From contig NZ_QAAE01000014.1 of the NCBI RefSeq assembly GCF_003046585.1, positions 1 through 64,000 of the forward strand: 64,000 nucleotides of DNA. The letters run 5' to 3'. The notes under the pieces were generated by a model. It worked only from the letters and a program-made list of their open reading frames with translations, did not search any database and was not told where the DNA came from. Every line of letters starts with the position of its first letter. Positions within the stretch are counted from its first letter, which is position 1. A program made the translations under genes and the position numbers. Positions 43,897 to 60,050 of this stretch are shown piece after piece. Source of the DNA: Nitrosomonas aestuarii. GTDB lineage: Bacteria > Pseudomonadota > Gammaproteobacteria > Burkholderiales > Nitrosomonadaceae.

Positions 43897-43941
43897 AAAC
43901 AACCACCTGCCGGAATATGAATTCATGCAGGTGGTTTGTTT
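43897..43941. terminator. Bidirectional terminator
   Basis: AAACAACCACCTGC pairs with GCAGGTGGTTTGTTT (one bulged T) around a 16-base loop. It lies between two convergent genes (43843 and 44007) and has A- and T-tracts on both sides. Confidence 0.85.
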
Positions 43942-44006: not shown

Positions 44007-46784
44007 TTATGGCACTGGATTTCTCTGTGCTTCTGTCAATCCGGCTTGCCATTCGGGAGGTAGCTGTTGTACCCACCCATTGTACACGTTGGGGATGGCC
44101 AGAACGCCTTGGCCTCCCATACCTGCCAGACTCACCACTGCGTCATCGGTAGTGGCGCTATTGTCAGCCATGGCTATAGTGCCAGCGATCGCTGCGTCAG
44201 AAAAATCACCATCATCATTTGGATCTGGATCCACCACGATCAGTCGATTGGAAAATTTGCTGGTTATATAGGCATAGTAGCCACCACCTGCCTTGGCGCC
44301 AAAGTTGGCGCCATGGCAACCAGGGTCGCATGGTAATACAGCCACAACAGTATTGGTGCTAGTGTCGACAATGGTAATGCTGCCACCTGTATTGGCGGTT
44401 ACGACCACCCTCCCGGTGGGATCAACAGGTGTCTGAATTGGTAAAATGCCGGAATTTGCCGCACCATCGCCTGACACAGGATCGTAGGATGCGATCAGGT
44501 TGATATAAGGCTTGCCGCCATTTGCTGTAACCGGTACCGGATTGCCGTCAAAATCATAAACATTCAAAGAATGATCCAGCAGGTTGGCTGCGTAAATTCT
44601 GTTGTTACCGACACCGATTGCGATCGGATGCGGGCCATGCGAGAAGTTTCCGCCCGCGGCGGGCCGCGCAATAATTTGTCCGGAATGGCCGTCATAAAAA
44701 CCGGTATCGGATGAGTTGATATTGGGTGTGACAATCTTGCCTTCCGGTGTAATCCAGTGACCGTGGGGATTTGCAGGAACCTGTCCAGGCAGTTGTGTGG
44801 GAATGCTGGATACCGGTGTTGTTGTGCCTGCCGGTATGGTTACAATTCTGTTCTCGCCATTAATGGCCACGGTAATATCGTCACTGTCCGGCATTGTCAT
44901 GACATGCGAAGGCGAATCGCCAATTTGAATATTATCAATCATCTGACCGTTGGATTGATTAATAAACGTTAGTTTGTTATCAAACCATTGTGTTTGAAAA
45001 ACGGTTGCCTGATTACGATCCACCCACATATTATGTGGATGATTCATATTGATTCCCGGCAAGGCAATTTTACGTTTAACTGTCCAGTTCGTTGTGTCCA
45101 GCACAGTAATGGTGCCAGGTTTTGTTTTGCTGGCTGTTTTTTCAAACTGGGTATTTATCCATACCTCACCGATCCCCGGCGTTACAGGCTTTGACAGTGG
45201 GCCCAGCACAATATCCTGACCGTATCTGCTTTCCAGCACGGCTTGCAGATTCAGTACCGCTCCGCCGCTTAAACGTACATTAACATCAGGGTAGTCAGCA
45301 TGCCAGGGTGCAGGTGAGGTGTAATCCTGCCAGTTTTCTTGGGTGGTGGCGACAAAAAAGGTTCTGAGCAAACGGGTAGCCAGGTCACTCGTGGTTGGCA
45401 GGTCATGAATCCCGGTTACCAGATCAATGGCTTCGCCCAGGTCCAATCCCTCGGTGCTGGGATCGTCAACGATAACAGCGCCAAACATATAGGGATGGAT
45501 TTTACACGTGAACACATACAGTCCGGGCGTGTTGAGTTGCACGATGCCGCCGCCACGATATGCTTTGGTCTGATCGAACGGTATGTCGTGCTTGTTTTCC
45601 GAATCAGCATCGCTTGGCCAGATTAAGGTGGTAATAGTATGCACTGCACGGGTGTCGGACATAATGAAATGTGCACTGCTACCCGGTGCCATTACTTCTA
45701 GTGATCGGGTCTTGATATTAAGCGCGCCAAGAGGCCCGGCAGGGTCAACTATTGCATCACTGCGTGCGCTTCTGAACCAGCTGCCCGGCTCGTCTGAAAT
45801 TTCGAAGGTCACTAATCCAGGATCGCTTTGATTGGAACTCAGCAATATTGCGCCGTACGGCGTTGCGCCCGCTACGCTGACACCGGATGCTGCACCGGGT
45901 TCATCCACGCGGAATCGTGCGGCCATATTGGATTCCATATGCGATACAACGTGACAGTGCAAATGCCACATGCCTGCGCCGACGCCCGTGCCTGCTTTGA
46001 CGGTAAATGCATGGCTGTCTGCTTTGCCGGTCAATATTTTGACGTCGATAATGTGGGGTGAAAAGCCTTGATGAACGGGATCGACTTCGTCGAGCCAGCG
46101 GTGTGCATGCAGATGGAACGTATGATCGTGTTCGAGTGACAATACATGAAAGCGCACCACTTCATTCAATGTGGCGCCCAGTACAGGATTGGTCCAAAGT
46201 GGTGTTTGTGTGCCGCTGGCTATTTCGGCGCCCCAGAATGTTGATCCCACCATGAACATGATATATTCCTTGTCCAGATCAGCAGCGTCAGTCGGAATAA
46301 TACTGCCGTCACCATCAATATAGCTCTGTACCGAGCCGTCGACAGCATTTACGATCAGAGCGCCAAACAATCCGAGTAACCCGGAACCGTCATCATAATA
46401 AGGATAGGTGCCTGCCTGGTTAGCGGTGAACGAATAATTTTGCGAGCCGCCCCCTGCGGCAGCTTCGGCTGCATTTTCCAGTATGCCCGGAATATTGAGC
46501 CCAACTGGCACACCAGTGTTGTTGGTGAGTGTAATGTTGATTGTGTCACCAAGTTGTGCAAACAATGTCGGACCGGGAATAATTGCTTCTGCAGGATAAT
46601 TCTGGGTTGAACCGTCATGGCTGATCATTTTGTAGCCCAATTGGCCATTAGGCAGTGTTTCAGCTGTAATGTTGATGGTATGCGTGGTGGCCGCCAGTGC
46701 GATACTTGAGAAAAGCATTGCCGTCATGAAAGCCATCAGCGCCGTCATCGTTTTTTTATTCAACCAAAAAATAATCGATTTCAT
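44007..46784 (-). CDS. Secreted multicopper-oxidase-like protein with three cupredoxin domains and a beta-propeller
   Basis: 925-residue exported protein (signal peptide ends LAATTH). Cupredoxin 1 (~33-150) keeps the fold (AIIPGPTLFAQLGDTINITL) but lacks both T2/T3 motifs: the HxHG place reads VGLNIPG and the HxH place reads YPYYDDG. Cupredoxin 2 (~170-295) keeps HxxHxH (His221, 224, 226) and the full HCHxxxHxxxxM motif (His276, Cys277, His278, His282, Met287), so it has a type-1 site and half a trinuclear site. A third cupredoxin (~360-440) has a plastocyanin-like set His382, Cys427, His430, Met433. Residues ~540-925 form a YVTN-type propeller, with CDPGCHG near 810. Second gene of an operon with the protein at 46818; substrate unknown. 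Confidence 0.85.
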   Translation of the reverse strand: MKSIIFWLNKKTMTALMAFMTAMLFSSIALAATTHTINITAETLPNGQLGYKMISHDGSTQNYPAEAIIPGPTLFAQLGDTINITLTNNTGVPVGLNIPGILENAAEAAAGGGSQNYSFTANQAGTYPYYDDGSGLLGLFGALIVNAVDGSVQSYIDGDGSIIPTDAADLDKEYIMFMVGSTFWGAEIASGTQTPLWTNPVLGATLNEVVRFHVLSLEHDHTFHLHAHRWLDEVDPVHQGFSPHIIDVKILTGKADSHAFTVKAGTGVGAGMWHLHCHVVSHMESNMAARFRVDEPGAASGVSVAGATPYGAILLSSNQSDPGLVTFEISDEPGSWFRSARSDAIVDPAGPLGALNIKTRSLEVMAPGSSAHFIMSDTRAVHTITTLIWPSDADSENKHDIPFDQTKAYRGGGIVQLNTPGLYVFTCKIHPYMFGAVIVDDPSTEGLDLGEAIDLVTGIHDLPTTSDLATRLLRTFFVATTQENWQDYTSPAPWHADYPDVNVRLSGGAVLNLQAVLESRYGQDIVLGPLSKPVTPGIGEVWINTQFEKTASKTKPGTITVLDTTNWTVKRKIALPGINMNHPHNMWVDRNQATVFQTQWFDNKLTFINQSNGQMIDNIQIGDSPSHVMTMPDSDDITVAINGENRIVTIPAGTTTPVSSIPTQLPGQVPANPHGHWITPEGKIVTPNINSSDTGFYDGHSGQIIARPAAGGNFSHGPHPIAIGVGNNRIYAANLLDHSLNVYDFDGNPVPVTANGGKPYINLIASYDPVSGDGAANSGILPIQTPVDPTGRVVVTANTGGSITIVDTSTNTVVAVLPCDPGCHGANFGAKAGGGYYAYITSKFSNRLIVVDPDPNDDGDFSDAAIAGTIAMADNSATTDDAVVSLAGMGGQGVLAIPNVYNGWVQQLPPEWQAGLTEAQRNPVP

Positions 46785-46817
46785 TTTTCTGTCCTTTTTT
46801 GAGAAGTATTTTGTTGA

Positions 46818-47897
46818 TTAGGGAATAACGTTGAAGTCGCCTTTCATGTTCAGCGAATTGCCGATGAAAGTGTCATCCCAATACTGCGAATCCCCTCTTG
46901 CCTGAACAACAAAAACATGTTTCTCGAGCGGACCTATTATTTTCTCACTGATGACTAAATTGGTGCCTGGGTCAGTCCATTCATAGTGATTCAATTTAAA
47001 ATTATGCGTATTGTTCCCCAAGGCAATCAAATGAAAGCGGACGAAGCTTTTTTCCTGTGCAAGAAGCGTCGGATTTTCCCAAAGCGGCGTGTGCCGTCTG
47101 TTTTTGTTATTGATCTCGGTTCCCCAGAACGCATCATCGCCAATAAACAAAACATATTCTTTTTGGATTCTGGATAAAGGCACTCTTTGTAATTTGCCTG
47201 CTTTATTCAAGGCAAGAATTTTTGATTTTTTGTCGTTTACGATTACAGCGCCGTAAAGCCCCCTGTCTTCCGCGCCATTCAGTGTAATCATATTGTGATC
47301 ATGATAGGGCCATGTACCCGCTGTGCCCGGTGCGGCAACCCAGTGATAGGTATAACTCATGGTCGGCGTGGCACTTTCGTCTGCAACCAGATTGATATAC
47401 TCGATGGTGCCATCACTGTGAATATCGTAGTGGACGCCATGTACATGAACGCTGACTTGCTCAAGCGTAGCCGAATTACCCGGATCAAATACATGTTTCA
47501 GTGTAAGCCTTACTTCGTCTCCCTCATCAATGATAATTGTGGGTCCCGGAATAGTCGGTTGCATCGAATATCGGGAGGTGATATCAGTTTCGTTGTTACG
47601 CTTTTTAATGACGTGGCTGGCCATGCGATAGGCAAACAAATCATTCCCGCCCTCGATGCCCGCCGGTATTTTCTCGGCCCATAATTCGATTAAATGTAGT
47701 TTTCCCTGTTTCGATTTTGTATCCAGTCTGTCCTCAGCCTCTCTCGCAAGAACTGTACTGGTTCCTGACAAAAAAATAGATACTATTAATATCCAAATAG
47801 ACAGCAGCCGTTTTGACTTACTTTTGTGATCAGAGATGACCGCCTTTGGGACATGTTGCGGACAATTTGAATCCACTGAATAGAATATGTATTTCAT
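46818..47897 (-). CDS. Secreted multicopper-oxidase-like protein with only the N-terminal copper motifs
   Basis: 359-residue two-cupredoxin protein with a late signal peptide (LLSIWILIVSIFLSGTSTVLA). Domain 1 has QPTIPGPTIIIDEGDEVRLTL and both T2/T3 motifs: HVHG (His151, His153) and HDH (His199, His201). Domain 2 keeps the fold, but the HxxHxH place reads HNFKLN and the HCHxxxHxxxxM place contains no Cys or His (YWDDTFIGNSLNM), so there is no type-1 copper. Alone it cannot be a complete oxidase. It holds exactly the motifs missing from the next gene (44007-46784), 33 bases downstream. An AraC regulator gene lies upstream, with four phased repeats in between (47971-48045). Confidence 0.85.
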   Translation of the reverse strand: MKYIFYSVDSNCPQHVPKAVISDHKSKSKRLLSIWILIVSIFLSGTSTVLAREAEDRLDTKSKQGKLHLIELWAEKIPAGIEGGNDLFAYRMASHVIKKRNNETDITSRYSMQPTIPGPTIIIDEGDEVRLTLKHVFDPGNSATLEQVSVHVHGVHYDIHSDGTIEYINLVADESATPTMSYTYHWVAAPGTAGTWPYHDHNMITLNGAEDRGLYGAVIVNDKKSKILALNKAGKLQRVPLSRIQKEYVLFIGDDAFWGTEINNKNRRHTPLWENPTLLAQEKSFVRFHLIALGNNTHNFKLNHYEWTDPGTNLVISEKIIGPLEKHVFVVQARGDSQYWDDTFIGNSLNMKGDFNVIP

Positions 47898-51012: not shown

Positions 51013-52206
51013 CTAAAAAAGATGGCGCAATCCAACTGTCCAGGTATTGCGGTCGCGGTCTACTGTTTCATTATGATTGATGACATTTACCCGTTGGTAA
51101 CCGCCGAACAAATTCGTTCGTTTGCTCAAGTGGTAAAGTCCTCCAATTGTATAGCTTTTAGCTGCACGACGCTTAAAGACGCTGGTGCCATGTGCATCAG
51201 TCATGCCTCCTTGCGCTACAAGCGTTGCATTGCCCATTTTATATTGACCGCCAACATACCAGATGTTGCCGTCACCGCCTGCGTTCATTGCAGAGTTGCA
51301 TTGTCTGGTTGCAACTTGACCGATCGCACCTAAAGCGGCGGCATCCGAACAGGTAGCGGCACCTATTGCATCGCTGATAAAGTCATATTGACCCTGGATC
51401 TGGACGTTTTTGTAAGACCAGACGCCGCCGATACGGCCGACTTCTTCTGTTTTTAAATTAACGGCCGTGATTCTTTTTTGCGCGGTACTGACATTGTCTC
51501 TGGAATATCCGCCGAACACCTCAAATTTATGCTCATGAAAATCCCAAACATATTTTGCAGCAAACTGAACATCCCACTCGCCGTCTTCACCGCCTGTTTC
51601 ACCAATATTGCCGCCATGGCCACCGAGCACGCCGCCAAGATTGGCTTCCAGTTTTTCTGAATCGCCGGGCATCAGCAAGGCGGCAAACGAAAAACCGTTG
51701 AATTCAGCCGATGTAAAACGAACAACGCTATTGACGGCCGAATATGCGCCTGCGCCCAGTCCATTTGCGCTGGCAATCATTGTGCCGCCGCTACCGGCAG
51801 CCTGCAGGGTCGTATAGACCAGGGGATCAATTGTCCAGCCGCCGGCAAAATCGGCAAATGGTGAGTGCGTGCGGCCAATTTTTAAGGTGCCTATAGCATC
51901 GTTATTGATTCCGACAAAGATTTCACGGCTGCCCTGTGCCGAGCCATTTGTATCGAAACCGAAATCAATCATTGCCATTGCCTGAAAACCATTGCCCAGG
52001 TTCTCGAATATACGAAAACCCCATGACGAAAAAAAGGTCGGGTCGTTAATTAAGGATTGACTTGAATAGCCTTCGATATTGATGTGGCTGTATTCGGACT
52101 GAATTCGGCCGACTAGAGACATTTTTGTTGTCGTTGCAAATGCAGATCCCGCGGTCGTCAATGCAAAAATGCCGGTTAATGCCGCAGATATCAACGTCTT
52201 ACTCAT
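51013..52206 (-). CDS. Gram-negative porin (OmpC/Porin_4 type)
   Basis: 397-residue outer-membrane general porin. The signal peptide runs to GSAFA, from the ATG at 52206 which follows AAGGGA. The mature protein starts with TTKMSLVGRIQSEYSH and has the neisserial/betaproteobacterial porin pattern: GNGFQAMAMIDFGFD, FVGINNDAIGTLKIGRTHSPF (loop-3 region), KYVWDFHEHKFEVFGGYSRD, and a C-terminal TWTVGLRHLF ending in Phe. Divergent from the beta-propeller gene at 52602. Confidence 0.93.
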   Translation of the reverse strand: MSKTLISAALTGIFALTTAGSAFATTTKMSLVGRIQSEYSHINIEGYSSQSLINDPTFFSSWGFRIFENLGNGFQAMAMIDFGFDTNGSAQGSREIFVGINNDAIGTLKIGRTHSPFADFAGGWTIDPLVYTTLQAAGSGGTMIASANGLGAGAYSAVNSVVRFTSAEFNGFSFAALLMPGDSEKLEANLGGVLGGHGGNIGETGGEDGEWDVQFAAKYVWDFHEHKFEVFGGYSRDNVSTAQKRITAVNLKTEEVGRIGGVWSYKNVQIQGQYDFISDAIGAATCSDAAALGAIGQVATRQCNSAMNAGGDGNIWYVGGQYKMGNATLVAQGGMTDAHGTSVFKRRAAKSYTIGGLYHLSKRTNLFGGYQRVNVINHNETVDRDRNTWTVGLRHLF

Positions 52207-52601
52207 AATAAATCCCTTTGTATATAAATATTTAATCAATATGAAACTTAAGTGTTATGAACATGTAATAAAGCGCTTCTACAATCTTGCCGTGTCTGTG
52301 CAGGTAAGAAGGTATATCTCAATCGTTTCATTTTCATGAAAGCAGGGGGTGGCACGATAAAACATTGAGGTTTTAAGTGATGTGAGAAATCTCACAGCGA
52401 TAAAGCGCCCGGTCTCATTAACATGCGGGCTTTCAATGCTGTGTATTTGCCTGGAATTGATCTGGATGCATCAGATCAATATCGGGTTGTTGTAAATCGG
52501 AAGGTGCGGCATACGCTTCTTTCGATCTGGTTTCTTGACGCATTGAAGCTCATACATTTCAATGTGTTAAGAATTTAATATTAATCTTGGAGGAAAATTT
52601 A
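52207..52601. other. Divergent promoter region, porin / beta-propeller gene
   Basis: About 395 bases containing control regions for both genes. An inverted repeat ATTGATCTG-N7-CAGATCAAT (52456-52480) lies about 120 bases before the beta-propeller start and may be an operator. No small gene seen. Confidence 0.55.
52456..52480. repeat. Inverted repeat, possible operator
   Basis: Nine-base arms ATTGATCTG and CAGATCAAT with a 7-base spacer. Not followed by a T-tract, so it is more like a protein-binding site than a terminator. Confidence 0.5.
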
Positions 52602-53987
52602 ATGGTTTCAACAATGAAACGCAGACGTATGGTTTCAATAACAGTTGCATGCGTACTGGCGTTATCAGCAGGTTCTGTAAGCGCTGAAAATTTTGATGAT
52701 GACGAAGGTGAAACACATTTTCGGAGTGCACAATATCCAAACTATCAATATCCGAATGTTTATAACAATTACCTGCAGCCTGTCGTAACCGCCATTGACT
52801 ATCACACTCGCGTGCTCTATCTGTTTAACTATGAGACTGATAAGTTGATTATTGTCGATCCAGCCAGTATTGCCGGCTGGCCAGGGGATTTGCCGTTACA
52901 ACATACAGGCATATTGCCGGGAGCAGATGTCATCTATGTCACTACCGATAATACCGAATTGCATTCGTCCTACATCATTGCATTGAAAGTAGATCATATC
53001 GACTGGGACGCAGGTTCAGCTTCGCTTTCGCTGGAATCGGTGTTGGCGGCGGACAGCCCGAATACGCCAGCCGAGCTGCCATTTGTCGAGCCGGTGAATG
53101 ATGTTCAAGACGTGCCCAACTGGATTGTGGGCAGAGGAACCCAGCTGCATGGCTTTACACTGTTGCCTTTCACAAAATATGCTTATCTGGCTGAATGGAC
53201 TGCGGACAGAATGCGCGTCATTGATCTTGAGACGAATGATTTTGCAAGCGCAGACCCTATCACTATTCCAGGTTATACCGAACAAACACATGGTGTTACC
53301 TTTAATAAATCAGGCACTATCGGTCTTGGTACGGGATATTTTTTTGATAACAGTGTGATCGATGTTTATGAGCCCAACAGAGCAACCGGCGATCTGCAGG
53401 TGGTCGGTCAGATCCAGCTGGGTAATGAAAAAAGACATGCGGCGTTTACCCATTATGTGTACTGGCTGGATGAACGGTTTGCGCTGACTGCTTCAATGCA
53501 ACTGGACAAAACTTCGTTGACACCATCCACTACTAAAAGAATTATTCCACCAAGTGTGTGGTTATTGGATACGCTGGAGGGAACCGCGACGAAAATTATC
53601 AGACACACTAAACGTGTTAATGGTCAGGGTGTTTTCCGTTCACCTTCCGACCTGGCTGTTATCAATGGCAAACTTTATCTTGCCGAGGAAGATTCGATTG
53701 ATCCCACATTTGGCGAAGATGGCTATATTTCAATTTGGGATTTAACCGATCGTTATAATCCGCGTTTTATCAAGCGCATGAAACCCGGGCGCGATCTGCC
53801 GGAGGGTTACGCTGTTGCGCATACCATCAGCCCAACGCCTGATAATCGCCATTTGATAATAGGAAGCTGGGTTTCCGGCTATGTGCTTAAGCTCGATACA
53901 TGGACCGATACCATTGTTAAGGTCTGGGGTCCTGCAGACGGCCTTGTGCAACCCCACGGCCTCTTTTCAGCAGGCGGTGACCGTTAA
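52602..53987 (+). CDS. Secreted beta-propeller protein with conserved-looking histidines
   Basis: 461-residue exported protein. The ATG at 52602 follows TTGGAGGAAA; the signal peptide ends VSA or ENF (SAGSVSAENF). The rest is built of propeller-type repeats, with WDL-like motifs near the end (YISIWDLTDRYNPRFIK, then LPEGYAVAHTISPTPDNRHLIIG and DGLVQPHGL). The latter resemble selenium-binding-protein 56/methanethiol-oxidase-type propellers, but I cannot assign it to that family. Several histidines lie in HG or H-turn contexts (QLHGF, QTHGV, HAAFTH, AHTISP, QPHGL), a pattern seen in copper-binding propellers. A Sco copper chaperone follows downstream on the same strand, which supports a metal site. 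Confidence 0.72.
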   Translation: MVSTMKRRRMVSITVACVLALSAGSVSAENFDDDEGETHFRSAQYPNYQYPNVYNNYLQPVVTAIDYHTRVLYLFNYETDKLIIVDPASIAGWPGDLPLQHTGILPGADVIYVTTDNTELHSSYIIALKVDHIDWDAGSASLSLESVLAADSPNTPAELPFVEPVNDVQDVPNWIVGRGTQLHGFTLLPFTKYAYLAEWTADRMRVIDLETNDFASADPITIPGYTEQTHGVTFNKSGTIGLGTGYFFDNSVIDVYEPNRATGDLQVVGQIQLGNEKRHAAFTHYVYWLDERFALTASMQLDKTSLTPSTTKRIIPPSVWLLDTLEGTATKIIRHTKRVNGQGVFRSPSDLAVINGKLYLAEEDSIDPTFGEDGYISIWDLTDRYNPRFIKRMKPGRDLPEGYAVAHTISPTPDNRHLIIGSWVSGYVLKLDTWTDTIVKVWGPADGLVQPHGLFSAGGDR

Positions 53988-54009
53988 TCATTTTTATTAA
54001 TTAACTGTT

Positions 54010-54062
54010 CGGCCCATCTGCGCTTGCCTGTGTACATTTGCAGGCAAGTCCAAGGTGGGCCG
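54010..54062 (+). terminator. Nested hairpin between the propeller gene and sco
   Basis: Outer stem CGGCCCA/TGGGCCG encloses an inner stem CTTGCCTG/CAGGCAAG. Only TTTAG follows, so termination would be partial. Probably lowers expression of the sco gene relative to the propeller gene or protects the upstream mRNA. Confidence 0.5.
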
Positions 54063-54115
54063 TTTAGACGATACAACAGAATGACTGCCAAAATGAACAA
54101 TAAGGAGAAATTAAC

Positions 54116-54706
54116 TTGAAAAGATACGTTTTAGATAAGCACAGTACCGGGGTAGTGGTTATGATATTTTTATTTTTTATTCAGATCGATATCATGGCTG
54201 CACCGCTTGTTCTGCCCCGACCTGTTCCGCTTCAGGCGGAAACATTTGCGCACCTGCAGCAAGCGCATGCGAATGAAAACAGCCAATGGCAATTGGTGGT
54301 TTTTGGATTTACCCGCTGCAAGGATATTTGTCCCATGTCGCTTGCTAACCTGGCTATGCTTATTCAAGCCGCCGAAGATGAAAAAATCAAATTGAACGGT
54401 ACATTCGTATCCATTGATCCTGACAGGGACTCCGTCGGCGCACTATCGAGTTATACAGAAAGATTCGGAACCGATATCGCTTATTTACGTTTTGAAGATG
54501 AAGAGCTGGCGAAATTTAAAACTGCGTTTGGTGTCGAAGTTGCCTTCTATACAAAAAATGCGGGCAATCAACAGAATTATCAGGTCGATCACAGTACCAC
54601 CGCCTTCTTAATTGACCCGCAAGGCAGAATAAAAATAATGTTTGACGCCGTAAAGGATGCCACCAGCGTGGCAAAATTATTTCATGACAAAAGGGAGTTA
54701 TTTTGA
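54116..54706 (+). CDS. sco: Sco1/SenC-family copper chaperone
   Basis: 196-residue thioredoxin-fold copper chaperone with an N-terminal membrane anchor or signal (VVVMIFLFFIQIDIMA). The copper ligands are complete: Cys and Cys in TRCKDICPMS (CxxxC) and the His in VDHSTTAFLID. Usually inserts Cu into CuA of cytochrome oxidase; next to a secreted propeller protein it may serve that protein instead. The start is TTG, fixed by an AAGGAGAAA site seven bases upstream. The next gene begins at the stop codon. Confidence 0.92.
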   Translation: MKRYVLDKHSTGVVVMIFLFFIQIDIMAAPLVLPRPVPLQAETFAHLQQAHANENSQWQLVVFGFTRCKDICPMSLANLAMLIQAAEDEKIKLNGTFVSIDPDRDSVGALSSYTERFGTDIAYLRFEDEELAKFKTAFGVEVAFYTKNAGNQQNYQVDHSTTAFLIDPQGRIKIMFDAVKDATSVAKLFHDKRELF

Positions 54707-54708
54707 GA

Positions 54709-55320
54709 ATGAATTGGATTGCCATGTTATTCATGCAATTGCTTTTGATGGCCGGACCGGTGTCTGCCATGCAGATCGAAGCGGATCCGCGCACCATCAT
54801 TTCTTTTATGGATAAATCTTTGTCGCCAGAATTGGATATTCTACGTGTGACAACGGACATTACGCCGGATAATCACCTCGTGTTCCAGGTAAAAACCAAA
54901 GACGAAAGAATAGAAGGGGAGGGTAGCGATTATTTGCTTTTAAACATTCAGCACGAGAAAAATTACGTGCTTCTAATTCCATTGAGCAAGGCAAAAGGCG
55001 ACAATATCCGGGTGTATGAAGGCGCGCCTCAACCGGGAACTGAGTTGACATCGATTAAATTCGAAGAGTCCAGTATAAACAAATTGCACGAAGGCTTTGA
55101 TGCAAGACATATATCCCGGGGGGCAGAATTTATAGTACCGCTCGAGTGGATTAATTTCGGTGCTGATTTTGGTTTTGATGCGTATACTGTTCGAGCTGAG
55201 ATCGTAGACAATGCATTGTTAATCAGTAAAGTATACGACCAGGCAAGAAAAGGGCGCGCTGCAGTAAAACAGATATCTGCAATTACATTGCTAAATAACA
55301 TTTGTTCGCCAAAGAAATAA
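54709..55320 (+). CDS. Secreted protein of unknown function
   Basis: 203-residue exported protein, signal peptide to PVSA (LLLMAGPVSAMQIEA). The mature part is beta-rich (ISFMDKSLSPELDILRVTTDI, HLVFQVKTKDERIEGEGSDYLLLNI) and has a single Cys near the C-terminus. I do not recognise a family. It begins two bases after the sco stop, so it is translated with sco, and a role in the same copper or redox process is likely. Confidence 0.75.
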   Translation: MNWIAMLFMQLLLMAGPVSAMQIEADPRTIISFMDKSLSPELDILRVTTDITPDNHLVFQVKTKDERIEGEGSDYLLLNIQHEKNYVLLIPLSKAKGDNIRVYEGAPQPGTELTSIKFEESSINKLHEGFDARHISRGAEFIVPLEWINFGADFGFDAYTVRAEIVDNALLISKVYDQARKGRAAVKQISAITLLNNICSPKK

Positions 55321-57716: not shown

Positions 57717-60050
57717 TTAAATATCTCTTGATTCGATCAGCCATTTATCCCAATTATTTTGACGATGAGCAGTTTGAATCTGCATGTAAGCATCGACAAG
57801 CTTCTCGAGAGCGGGCGGTTTGCCGGCAAAGAAGAAACTGATCAGCCCCGCTTTCTGATTGGCGCCTGTCAGTCGATTCCAGCCAGTTGCCACGCGATAA
57901 ATTAATTTGGAGTCCGTGATATAGTTTCCGACATGATAAGCATAAAAGATGTGCTGAACATCGTCGCTACCGCTCCGATTCCAGGTTGTGTGCATGAAAT
58001 TAATACAGTGTTCTTGCAAGCAGGCTAATCGGCTTGCAATATTGGCCTCACGCCAGTCATGGTTTCCTTTTGGAACAAGGCCGGACTCAGATAGTTTCTT
58101 ATTACCCGGCAGAGCCTGCACAATCATTACCTCCAAATCGCTATCTAAAACCAAATTCAGTGTGCTGGTTTTGGTTTTTTCATCCACAACCCAGTTTATA
58201 TTTGATTGAGCAGCAGAAAAGTTATCAGTGCTTACGAAAGCGAGTTCGGCGGAAGATGAGGGTGATTCCGCCTCCGAAATGCTCATTATTAACTGTGCCA
58301 GCCCAACTGTGCACACTACTAGCAAGCCCGCAACAAGCGGCATATAGCCTTTCATGCTCTGCCCTGAAAGCTGAGTTTTATCGCTGCAGGGTCTGTTACC
58401 TGTTTTAACCTCTGGTTGCAGGCGATAAACGGTCAGGAATAAAGCACCGAGTAGAAAAATCAGCGCGATTAACTGCATATCACCATGTTCTGCCAAACTC
58501 ATTTGGGTACCGTTAATCCAATCCAGCCAGATAATCATATTAACGCGTAACACATTGGCGGCAATACCCAGCAAACCGCCAAGCAGAGCAAGGCCTATTA
58601 CCTTTGACATGGAATGGTATAGCAAGGTGCCCCAACTGTAGGCGAGAAACATTGCCAGCATTACGAAAGTTAAACCAGAGCATGCCTCGATAACTACATA
58701 ACGATTAGCGCCAATGTAAATTACGAAGCCGTCAATGCTATGAGGAAGGTTGGTGATATTGGCAAACCAGTCTATGGCCATAACTGTCAGGATTCGTAGC
58801 GGTAATTGCAGTACATCTCCTGAAGGAATCATAAAAAACAGCAGTGCGAATAAAGGAAATAACTGCCACCAAATGTGTCGGCCTACGACTGATATTAGAA
58901 TGCCTTGTAATACCAATACGAAAGCAGCGTACATTCCCAGATTGATCTGTACTACAGCGGCGATCAGCCATAATATGATTGCGCCGGCAGTAACGGCGAT
59001 CCCTAATGGATCAGCTTGCGGAGACAGGGCTAATAGCTCATCACGATAATGCCAGCCCAGTGCGTAAATTAGAAAAGGCAAAACCAGCCAGGCATATTGG
59101 TAGGGTTCTGAGGACGACCAGAGCGATACCAGGCTGACAAAGGTCGGCCACATGGTCAGGCTGGCTAATACCAAACCCATGCCACCATATAGTAATGCCT
59201 GCTGCCATTCGTAACTGAGCGCTGTGGTTTTTATCGATGGCAGTTCGGGCTGTATTTCGCGCACAGAAGAGGGCATGTTCTTTCTGTACAATACCGGTTG
59301 TAAGAGCGTTCTCAATAATGTCGTATCCCGTTTTTTGTGAAAGTATTCCAGCCCGAAATACGGAATATGTACATTGGCAGGATCAATATATGTGCCAAAC
59401 AGTCGGTCCCATACAGTCAATATCGAGCCATAGTTACTGTCTGTTTGCTGCTGTGTGCTGGAGTGATGTATCAGGTGGACCGCAGGCGTAACCACCAGTA
59501 TCCGAAGTGCTGAATCAAATACACTGGGAAACCGCAAGTTGGAATGGACCCATAGTGAGCTTGCTATTGCTGCAAGCAGATAGATGCCAACGCCTTCAGC
59601 TGGAAGACCTAGGGCAAACACCAGCATTAACGCCAGTGGTGTTGTTATCAGAGCTTCAAAGGGGTGATGCCTTTCTGCGGTGGTTACATCGATAAAAGTA
59701 TCACTATGGTGAACAAGGTGTGCTCGCCAAAGCAGTGATACCTTGTGAAAGATGCGATGCTCCCAGTAGCGCCAGAAATCCAAGAGTAAAAACACCAACA
59801 CAAACTGGCCTCCCAGTGGTATCTCCATGGAAGATAAAAAGCCATGCGGCTGCATTTCAGCTATGGCATAGGGGCCAACAGGAAAGCACAGCGCAAGCAC
59901 AATACTCCCAATAACCAGGATCCCCAGATTAGTAGTCCAGCGACCGTTGCGCTTAATTCTTTGCCGTTGACATAATGGCACTCGCTCTAGCAGAAAAATG
60001 CCACCGCCAATGGAGAACAGCGTCACTACAAGTAGATTCTCGAAGACCAT
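57717..60050 (-). CDS. Fatty-acid hydroxylase/sterol desaturase-exosortase fusion with EpsI-like tail
   Basis: 777-residue polytopic protein with three parts. Residues ~1-250 are a fatty acid hydroxylase superfamily domain with the histidine boxes HRIFH (His98, His102), HLVHH (111, 114, 115) and HLIHH (192, 195, 196), which bind a di-iron centre. Residues ~280-545 are an exosortase domain with several membrane segments and the catalytic triad: Cys457 in EACSGL, Arg502 in ANVLRVN and His522 in EHGD. Residues ~575-777 start with a membrane segment and resemble the EpsI-type periplasmic domain. Stand-alone exosortases are ~180-300 residues or carry only an EpsI domain. All active-site residues are in place, so both activities are plausible. 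In an operon with the 82-residue protein 46 bases upstream. Not exosortase A, whose genes lack a desaturase domain. Confidence 0.9.
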   Translation of the reverse strand: MVFENLLVVTLFSIGGGIFLLERVPLCQRQRIKRNGRWTTNLGILVIGSIVLALCFPVGPYAIAEMQPHGFLSSMEIPLGGQFVLVFLLLDFWRYWEHRIFHKVSLLWRAHLVHHSDTFIDVTTAERHHPFEALITTPLALMLVFALGLPAEGVGIYLLAAIASSLWVHSNLRFPSVFDSALRILVVTPAVHLIHHSSTQQQTDSNYGSILTVWDRLFGTYIDPANVHIPYFGLEYFHKKRDTTLLRTLLQPVLYRKNMPSSVREIQPELPSIKTTALSYEWQQALLYGGMGLVLASLTMWPTFVSLVSLWSSSEPYQYAWLVLPFLIYALGWHYRDELLALSPQADPLGIAVTAGAIILWLIAAVVQINLGMYAAFVLVLQGILISVVGRHIWWQLFPLFALLFFMIPSGDVLQLPLRILTVMAIDWFANITNLPHSIDGFVIYIGANRYVVIEACSGLTFVMLAMFLAYSWGTLLYHSMSKVIGLALLGGLLGIAANVLRVNMIIWLDWINGTQMSLAEHGDMQLIALIFLLGALFLTVYRLQPEVKTGNRPCSDKTQLSGQSMKGYMPLVAGLLVVCTVGLAQLIMSISEAESPSSSAELAFVSTDNFSAAQSNINWVVDEKTKTSTLNLVLDSDLEVMIVQALPGNKKLSESGLVPKGNHDWREANIASRLACLQEHCINFMHTTWNRSGSDDVQHIFYAYHVGNYITDSKLIYRVATGWNRLTGANQKAGLISFFFAGKPPALEKLVDAYMQIQTAHRQNNWDKWLIESRDI

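Follow-up and report, generated by a model that had tools for sequence, protein, structure and literature searches.

The window analysed here, a stretch of 64,000 nucleotides from Nitrosomonas aestuarii, carries two adjacent genes that encode multicopper oxidase (MCO)-like proteins; all features of the pair given below lie on the minus strand. Gene A (46818..47897) is an open reading frame for a two-domain protein of 359 amino acids, and gene B (44007..46784) encodes a 925-residue protein composed of a two-domain MCO-like part, a further cupredoxin and a propeller. Signal peptides were recognised by eye in both. The genes are in frame with each other and separated by a 33-nt spacer (46785..46817), in which a purine-rich AAAGGA stretch ahead of the B start was read by eye as a ribosome-binding site. 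The spacers measured in the genus span -11 to 44 nt, taking the first Met of each open frame as the start, and A and B probably form one operon. Just past B, a 10-bp inverted repeat with a T-rich run behind it was noted by eye (43901..43936); it is a possible terminator, absent from the output of the terminator scan, whose length limit its loop exceeds. An SCO1/SenC gene lies in the same window at 54116-54706. The AraC gene that adjoins the pair in the window was not recognised by eye at the N. marina locus L075, where an SCO1-like gene was seen near the pair, also by eye. Response regulators of one LuxR-type family are found in 30 of the 79 loci compared, all of which belong to ammonia oxidisers as judged from record title or neighbours, and a SufR-like regulator adjoins a complete form of the oxidase in 5 loci. 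None of the AraC, LuxR-type and SufR-like neighbours points to a function.

Classical multicopper oxidases carry four copper-binding motifs, namely L1 (HxHG), L2 (HxH), L3 (HxxHxH) and L4 (HCHxxxHxxxxM). The earlier note had claimed that A has L1 and L2 without L3 and L4 and that B shows the reverse, and both the motifs and the ORF lengths are as claimed and kept in homologues. Protein A contains L1 as HVHG (residues 151-154; 47436..47447) and L2 as HDH (residues 199-201; 47295..47303), with both His of each motif present in 63/63 A homologues of the wider scan described below. On the basis of these motifs and their conservation, A holds only that half of the trinuclear copper site which domain 1 contributes. 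Its second cupredoxin domain (residues 240-359; 46821..47180) is without L3 and L4, and one T1-type His (H298) and a Met remain; the trinuclear-site His of L3 are found in 0/63 A homologues, and the T1 Cys of this domain is absent from all 63. In B, the first cupredoxin domain (residues 33-150; 46335..46688) has lost L1 and L2, with VGLNIPG at 94 and YPYYDDG at 127 standing at these positions, and among B homologues the L1 His are found in 0/58, as is the second L2 His. The second domain of B retains L3 as HTFHLH (residues 221-226; 46107..46124) and L4 as HCHVVSHMESNM (residues 276-287; 45924..45959), the latter with T1 copper ligands, and both are kept in 58/58 B homologues.

The third cupredoxin and the propeller that had been ascribed to the larger protein were likewise found. 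The third cupredoxin (residues 320-442; 45459..45827) shows weak matches to amicyanin and pseudoazurin and has a full T1 set (H382, C427, H430 and M433) that is invariant in 58 B proteins and in 15 cupredoxin-propeller proteins encoded by genes of their own. Together with domain 2, this gives B two complete T1 sites. The YVTN-type propeller (residues 530-925; 44010..45197), with conserved His 584, 627, 674, 676 and 824, has a seven-bladed fold of the YVTN/YncE type, matching 1l0q_A at a VIA Z of 35.0 (291 residues, 2.2 Å) and YncE 3vgz_A at 28.8. Against the Pfam YNCE cut-off of 27.1 bits, the corresponding propeller protein of methanotrophs scores over (41.6) and B under (13.1).

Within the genus, 49 genomes were searched and A was counted at E below 1e-40, which gave 40 places (34 distinct sequences and six more places, one of these a split gene). 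L1 and L2 are present in 40/40 of these and L3 or L4 in 0/40; all 35 near-full-length B places, checked as 30 plus five, carry L3 and L4, and none carries L1 or L2. The co-occurrence on which the earlier note had staked its proposal is borne out, with both genes in 35/49 genomes and a full copy of one alone in 0/49. Four of the 35 pair-bearing genomes have a broken or partial B. The pair is missing from 14/49 genomes, some of them nearly complete, which indicates that it is not essential to the genus. A third complete partner, named in the same note as a possible explanation of the losses, was not found adjacent to the pair, and the 40 strong A places include no complete oxidase of this clade; the source genome has other, distant MCOs.

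Beyond the genus, 84,980 species were scanned and the best 80 of 99 matches retained. Among these, all four domain-1 copper-cluster His occur in 63/63 A homologues, a count to be read knowing that the scan patterns include the L1 and L2 His, so that A homologues without these would escape. The four domain-2 cluster His and the T1 site occur in 58/58 intact B proteins. A full ligand set was found in none of the 63 A and 58 B proteins, where A was told from complete relatives by the absent HCHxxxH and the loss of L4 in A is therefore by definition. This definition does not presuppose that A lacks L3 or that B lacks L1/L2, and the genus search is free of both biases. In 61/63 cases of the named set, A is followed by B or parts of it, the remaining two A genes lying at a contig end; exceptions are an additional lone A copy in G027 (L174) and two genomes, G015 and G046, that have fragments resembling B but no A. 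Of the matches to the A profile in 369 class genomes, seven were weak and four strong, the latter in G000 and G006 and, as the complete form, in G102 and G329; a viral scan gave 22 pattern matches and 0 relatives. The dN/dS ratio was 0.081 for A domain 2 and 0.041 for B domain 1, with dS saturated, and dN of these broken halves was 2.2x (A domain 2) and 1.6x (B domain 1) that of the live halves. Judged by these substitution rates, purifying selection continues to act on the broken halves.

Relatives in methanotrophs and in Nitrosopumilus-type MAGs consist of one complete two-domain oxidase. Within the best 80 of 99 matches, 18/18 complete relatives have 12/12 ligands in one chain, L4 being present by definition. 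The closest relatives among the matches listed are the complete oxidase and the separate cupredoxin-propeller gene of methanotrophs (L130-L153), and this separate gene lies just downstream of the complete oxidase in 15/16 non-archaeal cases. The complete oxidase shares 41-45% identity with A in non-archaeal loci and 48% in two archaeal loci, and the separate cupredoxin-propeller gene shares 41-44% with B residues 300-921 (48% in one partial piece). The A and B profiles align with each other over 254 columns (E 2.9e-42). In a tree of 73 rows, A forms one clade (100/100) and B another (100/100), and the complete forms of methanotrophs fall outside the two; support for grouping A and B with the archaeal complete forms is only 90/72, and the root is unsure. 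The tree fits a duplication followed by complementary loss.

Duplication, fusion and reciprocal half-site loss thus seem, as far as sequence comparison goes, to have taken place in a group of nitrifying bacteria. The starting point would have been a complete oxidase gene beside a separate cupredoxin-propeller gene, an arrangement that methanotrophs still have. The oxidase gene would then have been duplicated and one copy fused to the neighbouring cupredoxin-propeller, after which each copy would have dropped the half-site retained by the other.

A and B quite likely make up a hetero-oligomeric type B two-domain MCO of the periplasm, with a shared cluster, that arose in the manner proposed. The earlier note had read the pair as a hetero-oligomer with a shared site, and complementary motifs, co-occurrence, complete relatives and the tree, all drawn from sequence, argue for this reading. 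The contact between domain 1 of A and domain 2 of B would be the sole interface with all eight His, so one cluster would be expected per such contact. Two kinds of subunit cannot alternate evenly around a ring of three, and the stoichiometry therefore calls for explanation; possibly, there is one working cluster per trimer. The shared cluster would be fed by B's own T1 copper, and the cupredoxin and His-bearing propeller of B may serve as an electron-donating or substrate module. Electrons would pass from the substrate, perhaps through the propeller, to the cupredoxin T1, the MCO T1, the shared cluster and finally O2. We infer the complex, its stoichiometry, copper loading, the direction of electron flow and the inactivity of lone subunits, as we do the labels 'obligate' and 'oxidase' for A and B.

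Two proposals concern the substrate, and both are nested in this shared-site explanation. The first, possible though doubtful, is a copper-handling or tolerance oxidase (CueO/CopA-like) with no nitrogen link. It would fit the weak CopA and CueO profile matches, the nearby SCO1/SenC gene and its by-eye counterpart in N. marina, and the copper monooxygenase of most carriers. The scores, however, are far under the curated cut-offs: the CopA profile gives A 29.1 and B 32.3 bits against an NCBIfam cut-off of 478.95, and the CueO profile gives A 19.1 against 525. Membership of the CopA/CueO copper-resistance oxidases was rejected for both proteins on these grounds, and none of the neighbour clusters listed around the 79 loci is an SCO1-like family.

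The second proposal, somewhat less likely than the first, is that the shared enzyme acts on N oxides or hydroxylamine arising from ammonia/methane monooxygenase, as a detoxification or auxiliary oxidase; any function in N-oxide metabolism is conjectural. AmoC/PmoC is over the cut-off in 59/74 named genomes holding the 79 loci (21/30 plus 38/44) compared with 9/274 in the class sample, although the carriers are related and AmoC matches are often contig-end fragments, so that these counts are not independent draws. AmoC was not found in 15/74 carriers, nor in G102, a 100% complete genome whose complete form is identical to that of L153, and the absence of the pair from part of the genus also speaks against this role. 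An NsrR-like Rrf2 gene stands beside the complete form in L132 (NsrR 149 bits with a cut-off of 182; RirA 140), and L137 has an Rrf2 gene 92% identical to it, but this regulator link covers only 2/18 complete-form loci and lies under the NsrR cut-off.

The propeller bears on the same proposal. Several conserved His plus a cupredoxin are a likeness to NosZ and lactonase-type NosZ, and thiocyanate dehydrogenase also combines a propeller bearing several conserved His with a cupredoxin. The methanotroph propeller protein matches the L-NosZ profile at E 2.3e-15 (56.1 bits) and B at 19.5 bits, both far under the cut-off of 700, and hhalign of the propeller with NosZ gives a probability of 31%. The cupredoxin, with its T1 set, is N-terminal in B and in the separate propeller proteins and C-terminal in two L-NosZ rows. 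Assignment of the propeller to lactonase-type (clade III) NosZ was rejected on the sub-threshold score, the lack of a C-terminal CuA-type cupredoxin and the hhalign result. No thiocyanate dehydrogenase is among the 50 fold matches listed for the propeller, which excludes nothing. The methanotroph propeller protein and the family profile also gave weak profile matches to hydrazine synthase beta, taken as a wider YVTN resemblance.

A more daring version, for which the chances are slim, is a self-contained copper relay, in which a His-ringed propeller with its own copper centre would draw electrons from nitric oxide or another nitrogen intermediate and send them by way of two blue-copper sites to the split O2-reducing cluster. 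If true, this would offer a candidate for a NO oxidation step or for NO detoxification among its ammonia- and methane-oxidising carriers. According to PMC10472526, the nitric oxide-oxidising enzyme of ammonia-oxidising bacteria is still only proposed. PMC13356812 reports two multicopper oxidase genes of N. europaea up under phage infection (LFC 6.16 and 6.14), and PMC9600857 describes plasmid-borne multicopper oxidases of Methylocystis SC2 that rise under high ammonium. No SC2 plasmid is among the matches listed, and both expression results were set aside as evidence for A and B, as they could not be tied to these genes.

It is unlikely that no site is shared at all, with B a T1-only electron-transfer or cuprous-oxidase-like protein and A a copper chaperone or structural partner. 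The two complete T1 sites of B would suffice for electron transfer, and the predicted fold did not reproduce the classical MCO arrangement. This prediction was made for one chain in which A, starting at residue 62, runs through the natural spacer into the first 300 residues of B, using an alignment of 16 read-through rows from other genomes, from which unpaired A and B rows were left out (MAFFT put A on B). The resulting model, of fair confidence (pTM 0.73, mean pLDDT 77.0; five models 67.0-77.0), differs from six-domain ceruloplasmin-type chains by 17-21 Å rmsd and so gives the classical arrangement no support. Yet the trinuclear His kept throughout the A and B homologues would be needless in a T1-only protein or scaffold, and the lost positions are exactly those that the partner retains. 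Mere divergence of two decaying MCO paralogues without a functional link, in which decay alone could give the motif loss, is scarcely credible given dN/dS well under 1 in all domains tested, complementary conservation across genera and the fixed gene pairing.

If the shared-site reading is right, the pair would be a clean natural case of duplication-degeneration-complementation on one metal cluster, in which relatives still have complete forms and the ligands missing from one derived copy are exactly those kept by the other. It would also provide a system in which to study the passage from a homomeric to an obligate heteromeric active site and to ask whether a trimeric oxidase runs on one cluster. 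Nitrifiers and methanotrophs would gain a putative copper oxidase with an extra cupredoxin and a His-bearing propeller.

Among two-domain laccases of the PDB, A matches domain 1 (phmmer best 2.3e-13), and the best match of B is with domain 2 (8.8e-21). Residues 1-300 of B have the two-domain MCO fold (VIA Z 23.8 to 8aip; 225 residues, 2.5 Å), and this fold is assigned to A by profile alignment to B and phmmer, from sequence only. Only B shows the type B pattern of T1 ligands in domain 2 with none in domain 1, and neither A nor B has all four motifs in one polypeptide. As described in PMC13151041, type B two-domain MCOs have T1 in domain 2, and their trinuclear site lies where domain 1 of one subunit meets domain 2 of its neighbour. 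Like A and B, the type B enzymes SLAC, Ssl1 and CjMCO have two cupredoxin domains per subunit, and they are the best sequence and fold matches. They are homotrimers with four motifs in each subunit, whereas A and B hold complementary half-sites and B bears a cupredoxin and a propeller. The methanotroph system differs in that the oxidase is complete in one gene, the propeller is unfused and no reciprocal loss has occurred. No description of a split A/B pair was found among the papers listed by the literature searches, mostly outside subscription journals, which is not proof of absence. The mcoN/NcgA-type enzyme of N. europaea, which we take to be a two-domain oxidase in the same genus, was left out of the tree; its motifs are complete in one chain, with other L1 and L3 surroundings than in A and B. 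Complete two-domain paralogues occur in the source genome (L003/L011) and also at L168. In ceruloplasmin-type oxidases, the trinuclear cluster is present at one interface only. PMC3600357 describes these six-domain enzymes as repeated two-domain units in which copper sites were lost after duplication. Their units lie in one chain, whereas in A and B the labour would be divided across two genes.

Genes A (47897-46818, 359 aa) and B (46784-44007, 925 aa) occupy the minus strand of the 3.44-Mb Nitrosomonas aestuarii genome in a common reading frame, with 33 nt between them. By eye, a purine-rich AAAGGA stands ahead of B, and a 10-bp inverted repeat with a T-rich stretch, absent from the scan output, lies downstream of it, both on the minus strand. 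Protein A carries the multicopper oxidase motifs L1 (HVHG at 151) and L2 (HDH at 199) and is without L3 and L4. Protein B carries L3 (HTFHLH at 221) and L4 (HCHVVSHMESNM at 276), with VGLNIPG and YPYYDDG at the positions of L1 and L2, and this reading of both proteins bears out the motif split described in an earlier note. The two are homologous in profile-profile comparison; two-domain laccases match A via domain 1 (about 114-226), whereas for B the best match is via domain 2 (about 194-298). Beyond its oxidase part, B continues into a cupredoxin with a full set of type 1 (T1) copper ligands and then a YVTN-type propeller; the earlier note had likewise assigned B a third cupredoxin and a propeller.

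The reciprocal motif loss is a conserved property of this gene pair. Searching the genus placed A (E < 1e-40) at 40 sites, all with L1 and L2 and without L3 and L4 (34 distinct sequences and six other places), and in all 35 near-full-length B places (30 plus five read) L3 and L4 are kept and both L1 and L2 are missing. Across 84,980 species, a scan with alignment A1 retained the best 80 of 99 relatives. These lie in 79 loci, which carry A (63), intact B (58) and complete single-chain proteins (18). Within this best 80 of 99, the four L1/L2 histidines are present in 63/63 A, a retention that is not independent because the scan patterns include these residues. The second and third L3 histidines occur in 0/63; for L4, the counts are 0/63 for the first histidine, 0/63 for the cysteine, 1/63 for the second histidine and 0/63 for the third, and the absence of HCHxxxH is likewise not independent, since it separated A from complete proteins. 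The genus search is free of both biases. Remnants persist in A at the first L3 histidine (56/63) and the methionine (61/63). All L3, L4 and T1 ligands are present in 58/58 B, with L1 in 0/58, the second L2 histidine in 0/58 and a histidine at the first L2 position in 31/58; complete proteins have 12/12 ligands in 18/18.

The closest named relative is Nitrosomonas marina Nm22 (A 80% identical, B 88%). Between the two species, dN/dS is 0.048 and 0.081 for domains 1 and 2 of A and 0.041 and 0.033 for those of B, with dS saturated (1.7-2.2), and dN in the broken versus the other half is 0.180 versus 0.082 for A and 0.091 versus 0.057 for B. By these values, the broken halves are retained rather than decaying, yet less constrained.

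Homologues of A and B are mostly found together, in line with the obligate partnership that had been suggested. The search covered 81 genomes, 49 from the genus (the window's own included) and 32 from other families of the order. A occurs at E < 1e-40 in 35 of them, and the B oxidase part in those same 35; in G008, G011, G017 and G038, B is broken or partial. The 32 genomes outside the genus gave weak matches only, at best 2.9e-4 with A and 9.7e-8 with B. A is absent from 14 of the 49 genus genomes, including nearly complete ones such as G035 and G044. Pieces resembling B occur without A in two of these 14, at a contig end in G015 and with stops in G046. Genome G027 has an additional lone A copy (L174:2044-3393, minus strand), a 450-codon open frame that keeps L1 and L2, with response-regulator-like ORFs upstream and no adjoining B. 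Across the named best 80 of 99, B follows A in 61/63 loci (broken or partial in L088, L107 and L110), and the remaining two A genes (L076, L121) reach a contig edge. Tandem double pairs occur in two Nitrosomonas MAGs (L082, L085).

Other features of the window and its genome were also recorded. Genes at window positions 51013-55320 code in turn for a porin, a 466-aa product that matches no Pfam family, SCO1/SenC and a 205-aa protein. By eye, similar genes in matching order adjoin the pair in N. marina (L075), and locus L103 has genes comparable in size and order. At 57717-60050 (minus strand), one 777-aa chain has a fatty acid hydroxylase domain (83-220) fused to an exosortase domain (294-538). 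In the window's own genome, a 978-aa ORF (L009, C5) is a multicopper oxidase whose single chain holds L1-L4, a cupredoxin-like insertion and, by eye, a galactose-oxidase-like C-terminal part.

Among the best 80 of 99 relatives, a single complete oxidase takes the place of the pair in methanotrophs (Methylomicrobium, Methylocaldum, Methylothermaceae, Methyloglobulus, Methylocystis), a Methyloversatilis MAG, a few unassigned gammaproteobacterial MAGs and two Nitrosopumilus-type MAGs. In 15/16 non-archaeal complete loci of that set, a separate gene matching the cupredoxin-propeller part of B lies directly downstream (identity 41-44%, or 48% for a piece ended by the contig; open frames mostly 608-640 aa; L145 has a short piece only). 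The two archaeal MAGs showed no such gene within the available stretch beside the oxidase, which in both (L133, L140) stands among archaeal-looking genes and groups nearest B. In a 73-row tree from careful IQ-TREE analysis, whose root is unsure because the outgroup is long-branched, A and B each form a single clade (both 100/100) with non-archaeal complete forms outside; archaeal complete forms fall next to B with weaker support (93/80), and A, B and the archaeal forms group at 90/72.

In Methylocystis (L149-L152, L164), the complete pair lies between a sigma-70-family gene and folE, and in Methylocystis rosea it is plasmid-borne. The gammaproteobacterial MAG locus L153 has the same gene order, and its complete form, shared with genome G102 (L157), is 85% identical to that of L149, reflecting either transfer or misbinning. 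Also within the genus, a cupredoxin-propeller protein that stands alone (L168:3237-6416) has upstream of it a complete two-domain oxidase of a different kind; the association of such proteins with oxidases thus recurs.

The cupredoxin T1 ligands are invariant in 15/15 separate cupredoxin-propeller proteins and 58/58 B, as are propeller histidines 584, 627, 674, 676 and 824 (one gap at 584). Histidines 719 (56/58) and 738 (57/58) are specific to B, and 584, 627, 674, 719 and 824 appear by eye to stand at blade starts. Judged from this conservation, the propeller histidines possibly form a candidate metal site.

A role of the enzyme in copper handling is no less likely than one in nitrogen-oxide chemistry. 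The latter draws on AmoC/PmoC, over cut-off in 59/74 named genomes carrying the 79 loci of the best 80 of 99 (21/30 plus 38/44 further genomes; a raw 39/46 also counts the repeat G740 and G102), often as fragments ending at contig edges, versus 9/274 in a class sample. It also draws on an NsrR-like regulator adjoining the complete form in L132, with a 92% identical relative upstream in L137. However, this regulator scores under the NsrR cut-off, and the complete form is identical in G102 (100% complete) and L153, neither of which gave an AmoC match, so the nitrogen-oxide role is a lead. In all, 15/74 carriers were below cut-off or unmatched. They include Nitrosospira and Nitrosovibrio isolates (L096, L105), where lost repeats are suspected, an archaeal MAG, possibly with an AmoC so divergent that the model misses it, and Nitrospirae, Pseudomonadales and Chromatiales MAGs that may be misassigned or truly without AmoC.

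Comparative evidence supports the hetero-oligomeric oxidase put forward in the earlier note. PMC13151041 describes type B two-domain oxidases as trimers in which domain 1 of one subunit and domain 2 of the next contribute the histidines of the trinuclear cluster. Because of the ligands present, only the contact of A domain 1 with B domain 2 would be competent to form the cluster, and the remaining trimer contacts would be blank. A fused A-B model (pTM 0.73) gave no superposition on six-domain oxidases and no usable interface read-out. In ceruloplasmin, the cluster is kept at one of three interfaces, and the blank contacts of an A/B trimer would resemble its two cluster-free interfaces.
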